From: Deltaproteobacteria bacterium
GTDB lineage: Bacteria; Desulfobacterota_B; Binatia; UBA9968
Direction: 5' to 3'
Assembly: GCA_022545745.1 (NCBI GenBank)
Contig: JACZQL010000086.1
Coordinates: 1 to 6,310 of the forward strand
Length of the DNA stretch: 6,310 nucleotides
Shown here: piece after piece, positions 1 to 6,310 of the stretch
How positions within the stretch are numbered: position 1 is the stretch's first letter
Layout of the letters: every line of letters begins with the position of its first letter
Notes under the pieces: model-generated
Database searches by the model: none
What the model saw: the letters and a program-made list of their open reading frames with translations, nothing else
Told to the model about the DNA's origin: nothing
Made by a program: the position numbers and the translations under genes

Positions 1-165
1 AATAGTCTGCGCACCATCGACTTCACGGGCGTGTGGGGCAGCGGGCCCAACGATGTGTTTGTCGTGGGACAGCGGTATAATCGGACTCTTCGCACTTCGG
101 AATATGTCATCCTCCATTACGATGGGACGAATTGGACGCAACACCATTATGGCACCGGTTTCGTA
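1..165 (+). pseudogene. fragment of a beta-propeller-like repeat protein
   Basis: Frame 1 is open from the first base, so the gene begins outside the window. About 55 residues read as protein: VWGSGPNDVFVVG at residues 11-23, then ILHYDGTNWT at about residues 41-50. This pair (W-G-S-x-x-x-D-V-[FY]-x-V-G followed by an I-x-H-Y-[DN]-G-x-x-W strand) is typical of repeated blades in large secreted or surface proteins of Myxococcota and related bacteria; their function is generally unknown. The frame stays open to base 342, but after about base 165 the opposite strand clearly encodes PqiB, so the tail is not genuine. The next blade expected after the W-T motif does not appear. I take it as a fragment joined artificially to the pqiB fragment. 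Good confidence in the repeat type, none in a specific function. Confidence 0.6.
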
Positions 166-200
166 GGGTTTCCGAGAAGCAATAACGTCGGGCGTCGAAA
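165..200. other. probable chimeric junction (beta-propeller fragment / pqiB)
   Basis: Left of here the plus strand encodes a repeat-protein blade; right of here the minus strand encodes PqiB. PqiB-like residues hold up to IEIEPERI (about base 199) and then lose resemblance to the family, which should continue with another 150-200 residues of the third MCE domain and the C-terminal helix. Two coding regions on opposite strands, both interrupted mid-domain within about 35 bases, point to an assembly or amplification join. The exact base cannot be fixed without homologous sequences. Confidence 0.6.
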
Positions 201-1251
201 TTCGCTCCGGCTCGATCTCGATGATCACGGGAATCTGCACGTCCAGGGTCTTCGGGTCAAACCTAACCGCGATGTCGGTGACGGAACCGACCTTGATCCC
301 CTTGAATTCCACGGGAGCGCCCACACTGAGGCCCCGGACTGACCCATCGAAGTGTATTATGTAAGGGACCGTCCGGACGTACAGTGCCTCGCCAATGCTC
401 GCGAAACTTTCGAACAGCTCAAAGGCAGTACCCGCCTTGCTTGGCTCGCTCGCCCCCCCAGCGGTCACTGGCGTATCGAAGCTGACACCTCCCGCGATGA
501 GTGTTGCGAGTGACCCTATTTTCAGGTCCAGGCCCTCCGCGCCGACCGACACCTCGATTCCACTCATTTTCCAGAACCGGCTGGTATCCCGTATACGGAG
601 GTGGTGTGGGGCACGGACGAAAATGTGGATGAGCACGCTCTGGTCGTCCTTGGCCAGTTCATGGCCCACGACCTCCCCCACCTCGATATCACGGAAGTAA
701 ATCGGTGATCCGGCACTCAGTGAGCCGAGCTTCTGCGCCCGGAGCATAAATTGACTACCAGCTTCACGGAACTTCACGCCTGGTGGCTTCTCCAGCCCCT
801 TGAACTCCCTTATCAGAGGCCCGGGCCTGGGGTCGATTTCAATGTAGGCCCCCGACACCAGGGTCTCGAGCCCGGAGATCCCACCGAACCCGATCCGCGG
901 ACGGACCACCCAGAACTTCGTGTTTTCCGTCAGGTGAGGTTCAGCAGCCTTGCCCATCTTCGCCATGACAGTGACGTGGCTGAGATCTTCACTGATGTCA
1001 ACGCCCTCGACCTCCCCCACTTCTACCGATTTGTATTTGATTTTTGTCTTTCCAGCCTCAAGACCCCCGCCATCTTTGAACGTGATGGTGATGGTGGGGC
1101 CCATCTCGGTGATCGTCTTGTAGGCAAGCCAGGCCCCGATGATGGCCGCGACCAGCGGGATGAGCCACACAACCGAGATTCCACGACGCTTTTCAATCGC
1201 GATCTCAGGGAGCTCTTCTACTGGGGATTGGCTTGGGCCTTCTTCATTCAT
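190..1251 (-). CDS. pqiB: PqiB-like MCE-domain protein, C-terminally truncated
   Basis: PqiB is an inner-membrane-anchored MCE protein whose hexamers form a hollow needle across the periplasm, thought to move lipids between membranes together with PqiA and the lipoprotein PqiC. About 354 residues are present here; family members usually have about 540. Visible: a short cytosolic N-terminus, KRRGISVVWLIPLVAAIIGAW (residues 21-41) as the single membrane anchor, a first MCE domain (about 50-145, with GLEAGKTKIKYKSVEVGEV and TKFWVVRPRIG), a second (about 165-265, with GSPIYFRDIEVGEVVG and TSRFWKMSGIEV) and the start of a third (about 298-351, FDGSVRGLSVGAPVEFKGIKVG). The start ATG at 1251 overlaps the pqiA-2 stop by 4 bases (ATGA) and has a GGAGG ribosome site (1259-1263) 7 bases upstream. 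The frame stays open to base 1, but residues past about base 190 no longer look like PqiB and probably lie beyond a chimeric join. pqiC, if present, is lost. Confidence 0.93.
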
Positions 1252-1868
1252 CGTTTTTCCTCCATCGCATCCCAGATCAGCCGCGGGTCGAAACTCCTCG
1301 CGGCAAACATCGTGATGACGACCACTGCGGCAAAGGATATAGCCCCGGGCCCGGGTTCGATCGTGGCGATGGCCTGGAGTTTGACCAGGGCTACTAAAAT
1401 AGAAATCATGAAAATGTCGATCATGGACCAGCGACCGATGACTTCGGTGACCCGGTACAGGACGGTCCGGTCCTTCGGTCGCCACCGGGACTTTCTTTGA
1501 ACCGACAGCAGCAAGTAGATCATCCCGGTGACCTTGGCCATGGGGACCATGATGCTCGCGAAAAAGACCAACAATGCCAGCGGCCACATCCCATATTCAA
1601 TGAAAGCCATCACCCCGCTCAGGATGGTGTCTGGACTTCCTTTCCCAAATGAGATCACCGTCATGACCGGATACACGTTGGCGGGAATGTACAGGATGAT
1701 TGCCGCCCAAATGAGTGCCCATGTCCGCGAAATGCTATTGGGCTTCCGAAGGTGTAATGAGGCCCCACACCGAGGACAAACCGCATGGCCTCCTGGAGGC
1801 AATCGCCTCGCCTGGCTCAAAAGATGGCAGGAGTGACAGTTCAGGAGAGAGGCACGAGCAGCAGTCAT
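1248..1868 (-). CDS. pqiA: PqiA-domain inner-membrane protein, second copy
   Basis: Single-domain PqiA protein of 206 residues. It has an N-terminal zinc-ribbon-like pair of CxxC motifs (C11/C14 and C31/C34), then about four membrane helices (about 48-68, 95-122, 145-168, 176-192), the family signature PANVYPVMT at 62-70, and a conserved end FDPRLIWDAM. In E. coli PqiA two such domains are fused in one protein of about 417 residues; here they are separate genes, an arrangement also seen in other proteobacteria. PqiA is the inner-membrane partner of the PqiB needle. I chose ATG 1868 over the upstream ATG at 1892 because 1868 gives an ATGA overlap with the stop of pqiA-1, and the extra eight residues lie inside that gene. 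No clear ribosome site precedes 1868, consistent with translational coupling. It overlaps pqiB by 4 bases. Confidence 0.93.
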   Translation of the reverse strand: MTAARASLLNCHSCHLLSQARRLPPGGHAVCPRCGASLHLRKPNSISRTWALIWAAIILYIPANVYPVMTVISFGKGSPDTILSGVMAFIEYGMWPLALLVFFASIMVPMAKVTGMIYLLLSVQRKSRWRPKDRTVLYRVTEVIGRWSMIDIFMISILVALVKLQAIATIEPGPGAISFAAVVVITMFAARSFDPRLIWDAMEEKR

Positions 1869-2482
1869 GAGGTGGTTTCCAACCTCTCCCAAACCTCATC
1901 AGGATCCAGAGTCATTCCTGCCGCGGTCACCAGCACGATAAGAGCCGCAAAGGAGTAAAGGGCTATACCGAGCACGATCGTGGCCATGTCGATCAACTTG
2001 ACGTACGCCACGATCACCCCAAGCAAGTACACTTCCATCATGACCCAAGGGCCCAGGGCCTCAATGAACCGGAATATTTGCGGGGCTTTCCAGGGGCGGC
2101 GGTTTAATTTCAAGGGCAAGAGAATATAGAGCGTTCCCAAAATTTTCACCAGTGGCAACAGGATGCTCGTCAGGAGGACTAACACTGAAAGCTCCATAAA
2201 TCCCTGTACATACAACTCCTCCACCCCGGTGATGAGGTAACTCTCCTGCACTCGACCCTGAAGTTTGAAAGTCATAAAGGGATAAACATTAGCTAGGATG
2301 AAGAGAATGAGGGCCGTTAGCGAAAGCGTCACCGTGCGGTCAAGACTGTCCCGTTTCTTCTGGTACAGGAGCGCCCCGCAGCGCGAGCACTTGGCCCGCT
2401 CACCATATCTCAACGGATGCGTGCGGTGAAGCAAGTCGCAGTCGTGACACGCGATGAGAGTATGTTCGGAAGCGGTTGACAT
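1865..2482 (-). CDS. pqiA: PqiA-domain inner-membrane protein, first copy
   Basis: First gene of the Pqi set, 205 residues, homologous in layout to its neighbour: CxxC pairs at C12/C15 and C32/C35 (zinc-ribbon-like), a DSLDRT segment leading into the first helix, LANVYPFMTF at 63-72, about four membrane helices (50-68, 95-122, 144-165, 168-189) and the ending LDPDEVWERL. Together the two proteins correspond to the N- and C-terminal halves of the fused E. coli PqiA, the membrane component of the PqiABC trans-envelope lipid pathway. ATG 2482 is the first start after an in-frame TGA just upstream and is immediately followed by residues typical for the family. Its ribosome site is poor: GGGA lies only two bases from the ATG, and both are inside a predicted hairpin. 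The stop overlaps the pqiA-2 start by 4 bases. Confidence 0.93.
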   Translation of the reverse strand: MSTASEHTLIACHDCDLLHRTHPLRYGERAKCSRCGALLYQKKRDSLDRTVTLSLTALILFILANVYPFMTFKLQGRVQESYLITGVEELYVQGFMELSVLVLLTSILLPLVKILGTLYILLPLKLNRRPWKAPQIFRFIEALGPWVMMEVYLLGVIVAYVKLIDMATIVLGIALYSFAALIVLVTAAGMTLDPDEVWERLETTS

Positions 2483-2502
2483 TTCCCAAGGGTATTGTCA
2501 AC
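2475..2502 (-). promoter_or_regulatory. imperfect hairpin enclosing the pqiA-1 start codon
   Basis: In the pqiA transcript, 5' GUUGACA (2502-2496) can pair perfectly with UGUCAAC (2481-2475). The interior holds CCC (2492-2490) opposite GGG (2487-2485) with a UU turn, that is, a CUUG tetraloop closed by C-G pairs, with a 3x3 partly mismatched interior loop between the stems. In all, 11 of 13 opposed bases are complementary. The AUG (2482-2480) lies in the 3' strand and the only purine-rich ribosome-site candidate (GGGA) is in the inner stem, so folding would hide translation initiation. At DNA level the same 28 bases form a near-perfect palindrome and could instead be an operator. The pairing is seen in the sequence; the regulatory role is inferred. 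Confidence 0.45.
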
Positions 2503-2624
2503 TTAACGAAAATTCTACCCCTAGCACACAATTCGCCTGGAGATAATCCATTGATTTATCAGGGAATACGCTGTGCGCTCCACACGTCCAATCAGCCAAA
2601 TCTGGCTTAAGTTGACAATACCCT
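2489..2624. repeat. 18-base perfect inverted repeat, arms 100 bases apart
   Basis: The bases 2489-2506 (plus strand AGGGTATTGTCAACTTAA) recur as an exact reverse complement at 2607-2624. The repeat fills most of the gap between the second PII-like gene and pqiA-1. The intervening 100 bases contain no open gene; I see only a small hairpin (AGCCA/TGGCT, about 2594-2607) and a weak -10-like hexamer. The pqiA-proximal arm overlaps the start-codon hairpin, and the core GTTGACA/TGTCAAC occurs three times (2475-2481, 2496-2502, 2611-2617). Options are a long-range RNA stem in read-through transcripts, paired protein-binding sites, termini of a small invertible or mobile segment, or an assembly scar. 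No typical intrinsic terminator with a U tract follows the PII-like gene. Confidence 0.75.
2512..2517 (-). promoter_or_regulatory. weak candidate -10 box for the pqiA operon
   Basis: On the minus strand TAGAAT matches 5 of 6 bases of the sigma-70 -10 consensus. It would start transcription near 2505, at the edge of the proximal inverted-repeat arm, giving a leader of only about 23 bases that consists of the start-codon hairpin. No convincing -35 box lies 16-18 bases upstream, so this is only a candidate. Confidence 0.2.
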
Positions 2625-2659
2625 CCCGAGTGTTGTTCGCCTGGGCTGAGTGTCTAGCC

Positions 2660-3043
2660 TTAGCTTTTCTCTGCCGGAACACCTTCGGGAAGTGAGAAGG
2701 ACGTGGACACAATTGGTTTGCTCAAGAAGATGACACCACCCCCTGGTCGGTCTATGTGCGCTTTTTCGAATATGTAATCGAATAGGGCTTCCGCCTCTGC
2801 CTCCGCTACCACCACGGTGACCATCTTGATCAGAGTGGGTTCGGGTAAACGGCCTCCTTTGGTGCGGACTCCGCGCAATGCAGCCAGGCCTCGGCAGGTA
2901 CCACTGTCGGCTCGTGTGATGCCCTTTTCACTCCGCATGGCCAGCAACAACAACCTGTCGCTGCCATCATCAGGCAGCACGCATGTAATGACCCGATTGA
3001 CCTCAAGAGGCATCGATTGTTCGGGTTTATGTCCGGCACTCAT
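2660..3043 (-). CDS. PII-like small regulatory protein, second copy
   Basis: A 127-residue protein with the ferredoxin-like pattern of the PII (GlnB/GlnK) superfamily. An N-terminal tail (1-14) precedes beta-1 VNRVITCVLP (15-24) and a helix; a basic, glycine-rich stretch (GITRADSGTCRGLAALRGVRTKGG, split here as residues 41-64) sits where the T-loop belongs. Then come LIKMVTVVVAEAEAEALFDYI (71-91) as beta-3 and helix 2, and RPGGGVIFLSKP (99-110) as the B-loop and beta-4 equivalent. PII proteins are trimers that bind nucleotides and dock on transporters or enzymes. The uridylylated-tyrosine T-loop of classical GlnB is not recognisable. ATG 3043 is preferred over the in-frame GTG at 3049: it has GGGAG (3049-3053) 5 bases upstream. 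It follows the other PII-like gene after 14 bases, and its transcript may read on into pqiA. It is clearly diverged from its neighbour, so not a recent duplication. Confidence 0.75.
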   Translation of the reverse strand: MSAGHKPEQSMPLEVNRVITCVLPDDGSDRLLLLAMRSEKGITRADSGTCRGLAALRGVRTKGGRLPEPTLIKMVTVVVAEAEAEALFDYIFEKAHIDRPGGGVIFLSKPIVSTSFSLPEGVPAEKS

Positions 3044-3057
3044 GAGCACTCCCGTCG

Positions 3058-3420
3058 TTATGCCTTATTACGCAACCGTTCTTTCATGCTCTGGGGAATA
3101 AAGGTAGCAACTTTTTCCAAAGGCGTGATGTAAAGGAATCCCCTGGCCGGGGTGTCGAAGTGACCGGCATGACAAATTCTGTCGGCCACGATATTCCGCT
3201 GATCAGAAGAGACCAAAACGCTGACAACATCCTTCTCTGCATCGACCGCAATTCCTAGTAATCCCAGCCGCTCACGTATTCCAAAGCCACGGCCATTATA
3301 AATCAAGGCGGCGGTGGCCCCCGCTTCTCTCGCAGCTTTAACAATTTCATCAGCGTCACCGCTTTGCACGACACAAGTAATCAGTGCCACATCGGTCAGA
3401 TATGTGATTTCTTCACTCAT
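3058..3420 (-). CDS. PII-like small regulatory protein, first copy
   Basis: A 120-residue protein of PII (GlnB-like) architecture: beta-1 VALITCVVQSG (11-21), helix DADEIVKAAREAG (22-34), ATAALIYNGRGFG (35-47) at the start of the T-loop position, a short loop (48-62), beta-3 DVVSVLVSSDQ (64-74), helix 2 RNIVADRICHAG (75-86), B-loop-like FDTPARGFLYITPLEKVATF (88-107) and a basic tail. The ITPLEKV segment lines up with the VLPVEDV strand of classical PII. The T-loop is much shorter than in GlnB or GlnK and lacks the modified tyrosine, so control by uridylylation is unlikely. Its ATG overlaps the stop of the DUF1538-type gene (ATGA), and no good ribosome site precedes it, so translation is probably coupled to the membrane protein. 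By analogy with AmtB-GlnK it may gate that protein; this is inference. Confidence 0.8.
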   Translation of the reverse strand: MSEEITYLTDVALITCVVQSGDADEIVKAAREAGATAALIYNGRGFGIRERLGLLGIAVDAEKDVVSVLVSSDQRNIVADRICHAGHFDTPARGFLYITPLEKVATFIPQSMKERLRNKA

Positions 3421-5207
3421 AATACAGTGGGGACCCCCTGAACTTGCGACAGCCCTGGGGCTTCAGTTGCCGCCAGAGCCTCCTTCCTCGCTCTATAGTC
3501 CGCTAAAAGACCTGTTACCAACACCGTAAGAATGGGGCCGATGGATGCCATGGAGAGAATGCCAAAGCCTTCCACGGCATTTGTTGCATTGCCAAACCCC
3601 AGACCCATGGCCAACACCAGGGGAACAGTGATCGGGCCGGTGGTGACACCGGCACTATCCCAGGCCACGTTGACGAACGTTTCACTGGAAAAAAAAGTCA
3701 ATACCAAAGCCAGCAGGTAACCGGGCAAGATCAACCATACCAGTGGAAGATCGAAAATCAGTTTGGCCAACCCGATGGCAATACCGATGGCCACGCCGAG
3801 AGAGACCGCTGTGATAAGCGTTTTTTTCTTGAACACACCTTTTGTGAGACTTTGCGCAGTTCCACCAAGAGCGTTCAGAGCTGGCTCGGCAACCGTGGCC
3901 CCATATCCGAGCCCAAAAGCGAACGCCAGCGAAAGGACCAGGCCCACCGCATAGATATACAGAGGGGATACTGGGATAGCCGAGAGTTCCATGAACGCAG
4001 CCGGCACGAGGCTGCCAACATCACCACCTAATTTTGAAAGGCCGTAGGTAAGTCCCACGTTAAACATAGATATTCCGATGATGGTCAGACCGATACCATA
4101 TACAATCTCGCCCATGTTTTGGAGCGTTTCTTTGAGGACCAACCGGAGCACCACAAACAGGAACAAGACCAGAGGCAGAATGGCGCGTACCCCCAGGACA
4201 ATCTCGACACCAGGACTACGTTCATACCAGGGCGCCCCCCCGGCTTGAAATCCTTCGGCGCTGGAATTCGCCGCTGCGATAATTTCTGCAGGCGTCACCG
4301 TGGATGCCACGTAAAGCGTAAGCCCGAGCACGCCGATGACAGGGAACAGCGAGGCCAGAGTCACAATACCGAACCCGGACAGCCCGGAGTCCCCTTTACC
4401 AGCCGCTGCGGCAATGCCTATTCCAAGCGACAGCACCAGTGGCACCGTAACCGGTCCAGTCGTGACCGCACCTGCATCCCAGGCCAAACCGAGTATCTTG
4501 GTCAGCTCGGGGTCAGATGCGCAATACAGGGTCAACCCCAGCACCGAGCCCAAGGAGATATAAATGAAGGGTTTCAGGCTCCAGCCATACAGGAACCGCA
4601 ATGTACCTGTGACCGCCGCAAGGCCAACACTAAAACCTATCACCAGAACCAGGACGTCCGACCAGTCATTGAGGAGGGCAAACAGATAGGGTGCGCGCTC
4701 CACCGCCACGTTTTGGCCGGCAGCCTTTAAGGCACCGATAGCGGGCTCGGCGAAGGTCACCCCGACCCCGAGGAGAAGCGTGATGAATAACACCAACGGC
4801 AAGGGCGATTTTTTCGGTAAACGCTTGCCGATCACCGTACCGAAAGGCATCAGGCCCAGCTTGAGCCCTTCCATAAAAAACATCAATCCGAGGATCACGG
4901 CAAACAGACCGCCGGTGATTACCCAGGAGTCTTGTATCAGTTGGCGAAGAATCAAGACCTGAAACAGCGACAGGTACAAGGCCAAGGGTATGACTGATTT
5001 GACTTGCTCCATGAACCGAACGGAGACATAGGGCCGCAGTAGGTTGAAGACCTCCCCTGGCATAAGTTTTATCGGGGTTGGCTGGTGGGGAATCAGACGG
5101 CCTTGCGAATCCCTTTCCAGTTTTGGGGTCAGCGCATTGAAACTGAGTTCGTCGTACCCGTATCCCAATTCGTATTGGTAATCCCCGAATCGAAAGTGAT
5201 CTGACAT
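3417..5207 (-). CDS. DUF1538-type polytopic membrane protein (putative transporter)
   Basis: A 596-residue membrane protein that I recognise as DUF1538-like. About 70 hydrophilic N-terminal residues precede roughly a dozen membrane helices. It is an internal duplication: EGLKLGLMPFG (113-123) repeats as VGLTYGLSKLG (384-394), FAEPAIGAL (152-160) as VAEPALNAL (439-447), and AWDAGAVTTGPVTVPLVL (242-259) as AWDSAGVTTGPITVPLVL (515-532). Such twofold architecture with conserved AWD-x3-VTTGP and AEPA motifs inside the membrane is typical of secondary transporters; the acidic residues could bind ions or substrate. The substrate is unknown. I chose ATG 5207 because AAGGA (5213-5217) lies 5 bases upstream and the frame upstream of it (to 5285) runs through sequence belonging to the substrate-binding protein. 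It heads an operon with two PII-like genes, suggesting post-translational control by them. Most of its promoter region is missing because of the join just upstream. Confidence 0.85.
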   Translation of the reverse strand: MSDHFRFGDYQYELGYGYDELSFNALTPKLERDSQGRLIPHQPTPIKLMPGEVFNLLRPYVSVRFMEQVKSVIPLALYLSLFQVLILRQLIQDSWVITGGLFAVILGLMFFMEGLKLGLMPFGTVIGKRLPKKSPLPLVLFITLLLGVGVTFAEPAIGALKAAGQNVAVERAPYLFALLNDWSDVLVLVIGFSVGLAAVTGTLRFLYGWSLKPFIYISLGSVLGLTLYCASDPELTKILGLAWDAGAVTTGPVTVPLVLSLGIGIAAAAGKGDSGLSGFGIVTLASLFPVIGVLGLTLYVASTVTPAEIIAAANSSAEGFQAGGAPWYERSPGVEIVLGVRAILPLVLFLFVVLRLVLKETLQNMGEIVYGIGLTIIGISMFNVGLTYGLSKLGGDVGSLVPAAFMELSAIPVSPLYIYAVGLVLSLAFAFGLGYGATVAEPALNALGGTAQSLTKGVFKKKTLITAVSLGVAIGIAIGLAKLIFDLPLVWLILPGYLLALVLTFFSSETFVNVAWDSAGVTTGPITVPLVLAMGLGFGNATNAVEGFGILSMASIGPILTVLVTGLLADYRARKEALAATEAPGLSQVQGVPTVL

Positions 5208-5211
5208 GTGA

Positions 5212-5250
5212 TTCCTTATCCATCCACCAACGTAATGAGTTCTTGCAGTC
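5212..5250. other. probable chimeric junction (substrate-binding protein / DUF1538 operon)
   Basis: The substrate-binding protein reads well to YQADDYGQD (to about 5248) and then enters the wrong frame within the leader of the DUF1538-type gene, after only about half of its usual length. The ribosome site AAGGA of the DUF1538-type gene (5213-5217) looks native, so the join lies between roughly 5217 and 5248. A natural deletion fusing two operons is possible, but the different apparent lineages of the two sides favour an assembly or amplification chimera. Confidence 0.6.
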
Positions 5251-5925
5251 CTGCCCGTAGTCATCGGCCTGATAGATGATCCCAACCACGCTGTCCGCGG
5301 TGATCACAGCCGGGTCGGCCATATTCATGGCCCAGTACGCAGCATTGGCGAACTGGGCGAAATAGGTGCCTGCCCCGAGGTTGAGAACCACGTTGCTGGT
5401 CAGCGACCAGTGTGAGGCAAGAGAGCCAGCCGACACCAGGATGTTTGCCGCGGCGGCGTCTTCATAGATCGTCGCCGTCGTCGGCGTTCCGATCGCACTC
5501 GAGAAACCCAGAACCTCATCCTTGATCTCGTTGTAGACGATCACGTTGGTCTCAGGGTTATAGGCGTTGTCACGAACAACTACTTCGATCGGGTACATGC
5601 CGGCAACGCCACCATTGGCGTTGACCTTCTCCCAGTACACCTCGTGACCATCGAGCAGAGATGCGCCAATCCCAGCAATCGGGCCGGTGATGGCGGCAAG
5701 GGCACCGACCTTTATCGTGCCCGTCGCCTCATCGAATCCGAAGTCGAAAACGAGGCCGGCCATCGCTTCGCTGGTTGTGGTATCCGCCGCCGGCTGTGTT
5801 GTGTCCGGAGCAGCTTCGGTGGTTGCCGTTGCTGCCTCCGTGGTGTCCGTCGACGTGCTCGGAGAGCAAGCCGCGACCACAAATGCAAGTGCTGCCACCA
5901 GCACCAAAGGCTTAGTGAATCTCAT
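5230..5925 (-). pseudogene. branched-chain amino acid type ABC substrate-binding lipoprotein, 3'-truncated
   Basis: The N-terminal 226 or so residues of a periplasmic-binding-fold (Peripla_BP_6, LivJ-type) lipoprotein; complete proteins are usually 400 or more. It has a lipoprotein signal peptide (MRFTKPLVLVAALAFVVAAC, lipid-anchored Cys20), a Thr/Ala-rich low-complexity linker (21-55), then domain I: GTIKVGALAAITGPIAGIG (69-87), a helix with a W at 98, NANGGVAGMYPIEVVVRD (102-119) and IGTPTTATIYEDAAAANILVSAGS (split 145-168), ending at IIYQADDYGQD where the fold crosses to domain II. The linker composition is typical of Acidimicrobiia and other actinobacteria. ATG 5925 is chosen because it starts the signal peptide; AGGAGG (5937-5942) lies 11 bases upstream, rather far. 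The gene follows a livM-like end, so it belonged to a HAAT-type ABC importer. The same frame continues to 4666, but that part is only a shadow of the DUF1538-type gene. Confidence 0.85.
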
Positions 5926-6006
5926 CTGTTCAAGTTCCTCCTCATGATCAGTGCGTCCGTCTTGCGACAGTGCCACTTCACGTTACATAGTCCGGCCATC
6001 AAGCGC

Positions 6007-6240
6007 TCAATATGTGAAAGGCCAGCCTTTCCAATAGTTCCGAGCCCGGACCCAGAGGCCGAATAACCCCAGGGGCTCGAATACCAAAAAGACCACGATG
6101 AATATCCCAAAGAGAATGGTGCTGAAGGCGGACTCGTCGAAACTTCCTGCGCCGGTCGCAGCCACAAATGGCAGCCAACCCTGCTGTGTCAGGTATGACA
6201 CCAATTCGGGCAGGGCCACCACAAAGATCGCACCTATCTC
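6007..6240 (-). CDS. livM: LivM-type branched-chain amino acid ABC permease, C-terminal fragment
   Basis: About 77 C-terminal residues of an inner-membrane permease of the hydrophobic amino acid transporter (HAAT) family. GAIFVVALPELV begins the readable part; a loop follows, then a helix (STILFGIFIVVFLVFEPLGLF, split as an SxxLFG start and a FEPLGLFGLWVR end) and the terminal RNYWKGWPFTY, a common LivM ending in actinobacteria. The stop TGA is at 6007-6009. The substrate-binding lipoprotein starts 81 bases downstream on the same strand, consistent with a transporter operon. Upstream of about 6240 the frame runs into a poly-G tract on this strand with no permease-like residues, so the rest of the gene is lost there. 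Confidence 0.8.
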   Translation of the reverse strand, partial: EIGAIFVVALPELVSYLTQQGWLPFVAATGAGSFDESAFSTILFGIFIVVFLVFEPLGLFGLWVRARNYWKGWPFTY

Positions 6241-6310
6241 CTCTCCCCCTCCCCCCCCCCTCCCCCCCCCCCCCATCATCGCGATGTCGGCGCACCAGCC
6301 CCCCCCCCCC
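6241..6310. repeat. C-rich low-complexity end, probable artefact
   Basis: Runs of 10, 13 and 12 C bases separated by short mixed sequence fill the last 70 bases. They replace the expected coding sequence of the permease, in which a glycine-only stretch would be implausible. On the minus strand they are poly-G, the typical no-signal output of two-colour sequencers, though GC-rich amplification error would look similar. I see no gene or regulatory site here. Confidence 0.75.

Follow-up and report, generated by a model that had tools for sequence, protein, structure and literature searches.

A fused UmpA-UmpB relative encoded with two PII-like proteins: a candidate PII-regulated cation/proton antiporter operon

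The window analyzed here, a stretch of 6,310 nucleotides from Deltaproteobacteria bacterium (Binatia, UBA9968; GenBank assembly GCA_022545745.1, contig JACZQL010000086.1, positions 1 to 6,310), carries on its minus strand a compact operon for a fused DUF1538 membrane protein and two small PII-like proteins, designated A and B. In our judgment the membrane protein is probably a monovalent cation/proton antiporter from the UmpAB family, its two halves fused, accompanied by a dedicated cytoplasmic PII regulator composed of the paralogues A and B. Other bacteria pair DUF1538 with PII so consistently that these sensors probably control the exchanger. If so, Na+/K+-proton exchange, and hence pH and ion balance, would join the processes under direct PII control, and the little-studied DUF1538 family would gain a regulator in a form that is directly testable.

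Pairing of PII proteins with transporters is already known; what appears to be new is that a family of cation/proton antiporters is regularly paired with one, two, or three PII units. No link between DUF1538 or UmpAB and PII, or between PII and an antiporter, was seen in the literature searched; a review cited in PMC13249358 (Selim and Alva 2024) might mention one. The terms PII, P-II, and nitrogen regulatory are all absent from the main text of the paper describing UmpAB (PMC5484666). The "PII" matched in PMC7221264 is part of a motif string.

The operon and its proteins

The gene for the membrane protein (3417..5207; 596 amino acids from the ATG at 5207) was recognized from the list of open reading frames (ORFs), Pfam, and NCBIfam. 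Its stop shares four bases, ATGA (3417..3420), with the start of the gene for PII-like protein A (3058..3420; 120 amino acids; ORF list, Pfam, and profile). The gene for PII-like protein B (2660..3043; 127 amino acids from its ATG; profile and AlphaFold model) begins 14 bases beyond the end of A at the ATG at 3043, or 8 bases beyond it at an alternative GTG at 3049, which would give a protein of 129 amino acids (2660-3049). The reading frames of all three genes are intact. A preliminary description, made from the letters of the window, had proposed just such a minus-strand operon, with a 4-base ATGA overlap and a 14-base gap, around a duplicated membrane protein, and the ORFs and the two alignments described next agree with it.

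The membrane protein scores well above the Pfam gathering threshold for DUF1538 (PF07556; 346 versus 22.6 bits, E 6.4e-104) in two stretches, and its halves align with one another at 32% identity (BLASTP, E 2e-23), as expected of an internal duplication. The first repeat (4308..5015, minus strand; residues 65-300) contains the conserved residues E113, E154, and D244, and the second (3483..4205, minus strand; residues 335-575) contains E441, E509, and D517; ahead of the first lies a less conserved, hydrophilic N-terminal extension (5019..5207, minus strand; about residues 1-63). In an alignment of 76 fused proteins, including that of the window, these six acidic residues are kept at 99-100%, and conserved acidic residues sit at matching places of both repeats. 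Each half carries an EPA motif (E154, E441) and a WD...TTGP.TVPLVL motif (D244, D517). A sequence search found no solved DUF1538 structure.

The best stretch for the NCBIfam UmpA model falls on residues 65-295 (202 bits) and that for the UmpB model on residues 340-575 (168 bits), giving the architecture of UmpAB: two homologous DUF1538 parts, UmpA-like first and UmpB-like second. Judged by its sequence, the membrane protein of the window is related to UmpA and UmpB joined in a single chain. The UmpAB pair of Halomonas zhaodongensis is a heterodimeric Na+(Li+,K+)/H+ antiporter that conferred antiport and salt tolerance on Escherichia coli (PMC5484666), a measured activity that corrects the preliminary description, in which the transporter's substrate was given as unknown. 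In addition, a 2026 machine-learning study placed DUF1538 among the 20 Pfam families most informative for growth pH, in a list that also includes Mrp antiporter and K+ transporter families (PMC13255231). On the strength of the UmpAB antiport and this ranking, cation/proton exchange is our best guess for the window protein. The window protein and UmpAB share their Pfam family, the order of an UmpA-like before an UmpB-like part, and a construction from two homologous parts needed together. The window protein differs in being one fused chain, in its N-terminal extension, in the two PII genes behind it, and in scores that lie far below the equivalog cut-offs.

Both small proteins are members of the PII superfamily, B by model and profile and A by profile alone. 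Window A matches PF00543 (E 2.6e-5) with 24.9 bits, 0.1 below the cut-off, and PII chains of the PDB were recovered with a profile built from 41 A proteins (best E 9.9e-8). Window B has no Pfam match of its own; 7 of 48 B proteins match Pfam P-II at E 0.01, and the profile built from all 48 matches PDB PII chains (best E 1.8e-6). The AlphaFold model of B (predicted local distance difference test score, pLDDT, 87) has the order beta-alpha-beta-beta-alpha-beta and matches GlnK/PII structures. The A and B profiles match one another with an hhalign probability of 99.4%, and both match PDB entry 9p1x, which contains two different PII chains. The preliminary description had staked its reading on the PII-like character of both small proteins, which is borne out in the modelled fold of B and the profile of A.

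The binding residues of canonical PII proteins are largely replaced. At the columns of Gln39, Tyr51, Lys90, Arg101, and Arg103, as defined by five canonical PII proteins and with residue roles taken from PMC8395244, R, gap, F, T, and gap stand in window A, and L, R, V, S, and S in window B. Of the 41 A proteins, 40 retain Lys58 and all 41 the final B-loop glycine, which 46 of 48 B proteins also have. The T-loop of 8 of the 48 B proteins, window B not among them, contains YRG that is unaligned with Tyr51, so those eight may have a T-loop tyrosine. A canonical nitrogen-type pair (GlnB/GlnK) is ruled out for window A and B by the mismatch at key ligand residues.

Pairing of DUF1538 and PII genes across genomes

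Scanning genome contigs gave 149 related loci, of which the 80 best were retained, and 73 of these extend at least 800 bp past the DUF1538 stop. PII of some form is present in 71 of the 73. A followed by B lies downstream in 63, indicating that the arrangement is more than chance and supporting the expectation of the preliminary description, which had treated it as decisive, that the genes are neighbors in other genomes. Four loci have A alone (L065, L067, L069, L070), three have a single protein of 370-377 amino acids with three PII domains (L077, L079, L080), and in one A is cut by masked bases (L056). The DUF1538 and A genes are spaced at -4 in 55 of 67 related loci, a count that leans toward this value since the start of A was picked nearest to -4.

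The closest relatives of the window are Nitrospirota contigs: L072, with 82-84% DNA identity over window positions 2631-4177 and 4435-5231, followed by L048 (partial; 77%) and by L001 and L002 (71-72%). DUF1538 is rare in this phylum (7 of 148 genomes), and PII adjoins it in 6 of the 7 genomes with a match. The DUF1538 frame of L072 (L072:6001-7503) encodes 500 amino acids, and its match omits window positions 4178-4434, which points to a deletion or an assembly fault in that copy.

Co-occurrence was measured in 274 genomes from the class of the Thiocapsa genome G004, with a PII family match defined by E <= 1e-10. DUF1538 occurs in 90 of these genomes and the PII family in 92; the PII family is present in all 90 genomes with DUF1538 and in 2 of the 184 without it (G255 and G348). 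From 80 of the 90 genomes, 81 DUF1538 loci (30 + 51) were extracted, with two or three separate DUF1538 frames in 71 and one in 10. Of these loci, 76 continue for more than 500 bp past DUF1538, and in 73 of them PII follows on the same strand no more than 600 bp away; of the exceptions, L149 has PII 1.4 kb away and L178 has it on the upstream side. Among the ten remaining genomes, nine lower-scoring ones (L197-L205) have DUF1538 next to PII, which takes the form of a single long protein or of one or two genes, and the tenth, G004, is the genome of L031, an A+B locus. Of 20 further places with PII in all, six have no DUF1538 in the stretch; in three of these (L193, L195, L207) the contig ends about 330 bp or less upstream of the PII gene. 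At L211 there is a DUF1538 fragment of only 68 amino acids.

The closest relatives of UmpA give a similar picture. UmpA-like matches were found in 39 of 293 and 53 of 116 genomes, and the best 20 loci of each set, 37 of them distinct, all have PII (37 of 37). No protein in the 293 + 116 genomes exceeds the UmpA equivalog cut-off (best, 444 of 490 bits); the Halomonas locus lies outside this sample. PII pairing is near-obligatory among the sampled DUF1538 loci. The core idea of the preliminary description, a PII-gated transporter, is strengthened by this conserved pairing.

The three-domain PII proteins extend the range of arrangements. With the 370-377-amino-acid protein as query, 434 relatives of similar length were found; single chains with three different PII-like domains are widespread. 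The model of the triple-PII protein (pLDDT 85.5; predicted template modelling score, pTM, 0.85) is built of three beta-alpha-beta-beta-alpha-beta units. In separate rows, residues 7-112, 131-228, and 279-375 are each matched by PII chains of the PDB; SbtB and CPII chains are among those that match its fold. Pfam P-II matches at E 0.01 were found in 18 of 92 triple-PII proteins, leaving 74 without. Such a chain may fold into a built-in PII ring.

The preliminary description had also raised the possibility that each PII-like protein serves one half of the membrane protein. In keeping with it, a PII gene stands on both sides of umpA-umpB in 3 of the 37 loci (L213, L215, L235); against it, most of the split pairs examined have one PII, and three-domain chains exist, so that one mixed trimer fits at least as well. 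It is conceivable, and we offer it as a tentative generalization that may well not hold, that gating by PII is general among DUF1538 cation/proton antiporters, with a PII ring that became progressively unequal: one PII with split UmpA and UmpB, a mixed trimer of A and B with the fused protein, and a three-domain chain, in effect a built-in heterotrimer, in other lineages. An unequal ring of this kind could enable a threefold regulator to act on both unlike halves of a transporter with twofold pseudo-symmetry, with domains sensing different signals. With triple-PII chains, unlike homotrimers, each site in a PII ring of three could be assigned a role of its own.

Gating of the exchanger and competing explanations

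By analogy with AmtB-GlnK and SbtA-SbtB, A and B would assemble into a ring, and this ring, docked on the antiporter at its cytoplasmic face, would slow or block exchange depending on the metabolite bound. Gating of this kind could tie Na+/K+/H+ exchange to the energy or carbon state of the cell. AmtB-GlnK and the window operon have in common a transporter gene paired with a PII gene and the PII fold. They differ in that AmtB belongs to an unrelated transporter family and is paired with one PII rather than two paralogues, and in that A and B are without the canonical Gln39, Lys90, Arg101/103, and Tyr51. SbtA, in turn, is of a different transporter family from DUF1538. GlnK in the ADP state inserts its T-loops into the AmtB channels and withdraws them with Mg-ATP/2-oxoglutarate (PMC8395244), and SbtB, a dedicated and diverged PII-like partner as A and B appear to be, acts on SbtA (PMC13249358). 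The profiles of A and B match classical PII chains, and there is no cysteine in the last 25 residues of window A and B, hence no R-loop motif. A pair of neighboring, diverged PII genes within a single operon is also found in NifI1-NifI2 of diazotrophic methanogens, for which unusual oligomers have been suggested (PMC8395244); there, operon and target belong to nitrogenase and not to a membrane transporter.

Several observations weigh against a PII-gated cation/proton antiporter. The window protein falls far short of the UmpA and UmpB equivalog cut-offs (NF041627, 202 of 490 bits; NF041628, 168 of 500 bits), so that its function stays a guess and its substrate may differ, and to our knowledge UmpAB alone among DUF1538 pairs has been assayed. 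Given that A and B are without several canonical ligand residues, gating by nucleotides is not assured. PII is missing from 2 of the 73 related loci (L049, L074), from 1 of the 76 co-occurrence loci (L169, a lone umpA-like gene), and from the short stretch around a partial DUF1538 gene in the Nitrospirota genome G135 (L090). Finally, three PII places (L194, L196, L212) have 1.4 to 4 kb of upstream sequence without DUF1538, showing that the PII family can stand apart.

PII proteins generally have many targets, and A and B might merely be co-transcribed with the exchanger while regulating something else, such as nitrogen metabolism or transcription. The few PII genes of the family without DUF1538 upstream, those of L194, L196, and L212, would suit this explanation, which we consider quite unlikely in view of the near-perfect co-occurrence and adjacency across the split, fused, and triple-PII arrangements. 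Genomes G001, G004, and G007 moreover have strong separate PII matches, whereas G009 has only a weak one. The same obligate co-occurrence would fit A and B as structural subunits required for assembly or activity rather than as gates, an explanation we regard as improbable: UmpAB worked in E. coli KNabc from its two genes alone (PMC5484666), so that PII would be a modulator and not a needed subunit. This objection is slightly weakened by the presence of E. coli's own PII proteins.

A further explanation is that the fused DUF1538 protein is, or serves, an inorganic-carbon uptake system, either as the bicarbonate transporter itself or as a Na+ exporter feeding a Na+-driven bicarbonate importer, with A and B as SbtB-like sensors of carbon or energy; this we think unlikely, if less so than the two preceding alternatives. 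RuBisCO is matched at full strength in 67 of 90 DUF1538 genomes and 61 of 184 others (odds ratio 5.9 over the 274 genomes, kinship ignored); with the 14 matches weaker than 1e-100 that were set aside, the counts become 68 of 90 and 74 of 184 (odds ratio 4.6). SulP, the family of the bicarbonate transporter BicA, provides the first called gene past B in L021, L025, and L078 (by Pfam) and L027 (by clustering). Crude and partly checked clustering placed SulP-like genes among the flanking genes, at most six per locus, of 9 loci out of 61; flanking genes came from a crude longest-ORF caller, and 61 of the 63 A+B loci had any.

The NuoL/YbcC operons are of DAB type. They resemble the window operon as membrane ion-translocation-type operons beside which PII and SulP genes are also found, with a PII gene at the 3' end in one clade and SulP in another arrangement (PMC5700660). 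Their membrane protein belongs to another family, and no mention of DUF1538 was seen in that paper (PMC5700660). Against a role in carbon uptake, 23 of the 90 DUF1538 genomes are without full-strength RuBisCO, and a search covering 50 A+B genomes (out of 63 loci) found RuBisCO matches of any strength in 31 and full-strength matches in 27. The sole measured DUF1538 activity we found is cation/H+ antiport, and no chain named SbtB or CPII is among the listed PDB sequence matches of the A and B profiles. Since kinship was ignored and 23 genomes with DUF1538 are without full-strength RuBisCO, we treat the link to carbon as a lead only.

Genes near the operon and the ends of the window

Other genes were seen close behind B in related loci. 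A PF00999 Na+/H+ exchanger follows B in L039 and L046 (by Pfam) and in L040 (by clustering); that of L046 (L046:8518-10986), directly behind PII-B, has a C-terminal cyclic-nucleotide-binding domain. Behind the SulP-type gene adjoining the operon, L025 encodes a protein of about 334 amino acids with no Pfam match (L025:10320-11324; also in L031 and L078). In L051 a SpoIIE-type phosphatase gene (L051:8456-10108) overlaps the end of PII-B, and similar long genes occupy the same place in L055 and L062.

In the window itself, the operon is followed by pqiA-pqiA-pqiB on the minus strand (1-2482), the last gene of which runs off the contig; an ORF on the plus strand (1-342) resembles an unrelated fragment. 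PII-B is separated from the pqi genes by a perfect 18-nucleotide inverted repeat (2489-2624) with 100 nucleotides between its arms, similar to a miniature inverted-repeat transposable element; the DNA fold of 2484-2626 has a z-score of -6.2. On the other side of the operon, positions 5217-6310 encode a truncated substrate-binding protein of the branched-chain-amino-acid type. Its family match ends at about 5217 and the similarity of L072 to the window ends at 5231, which makes a chimeric join of the contig probable at this point. The C runs of 6240-6310 probably mark a low-quality end.

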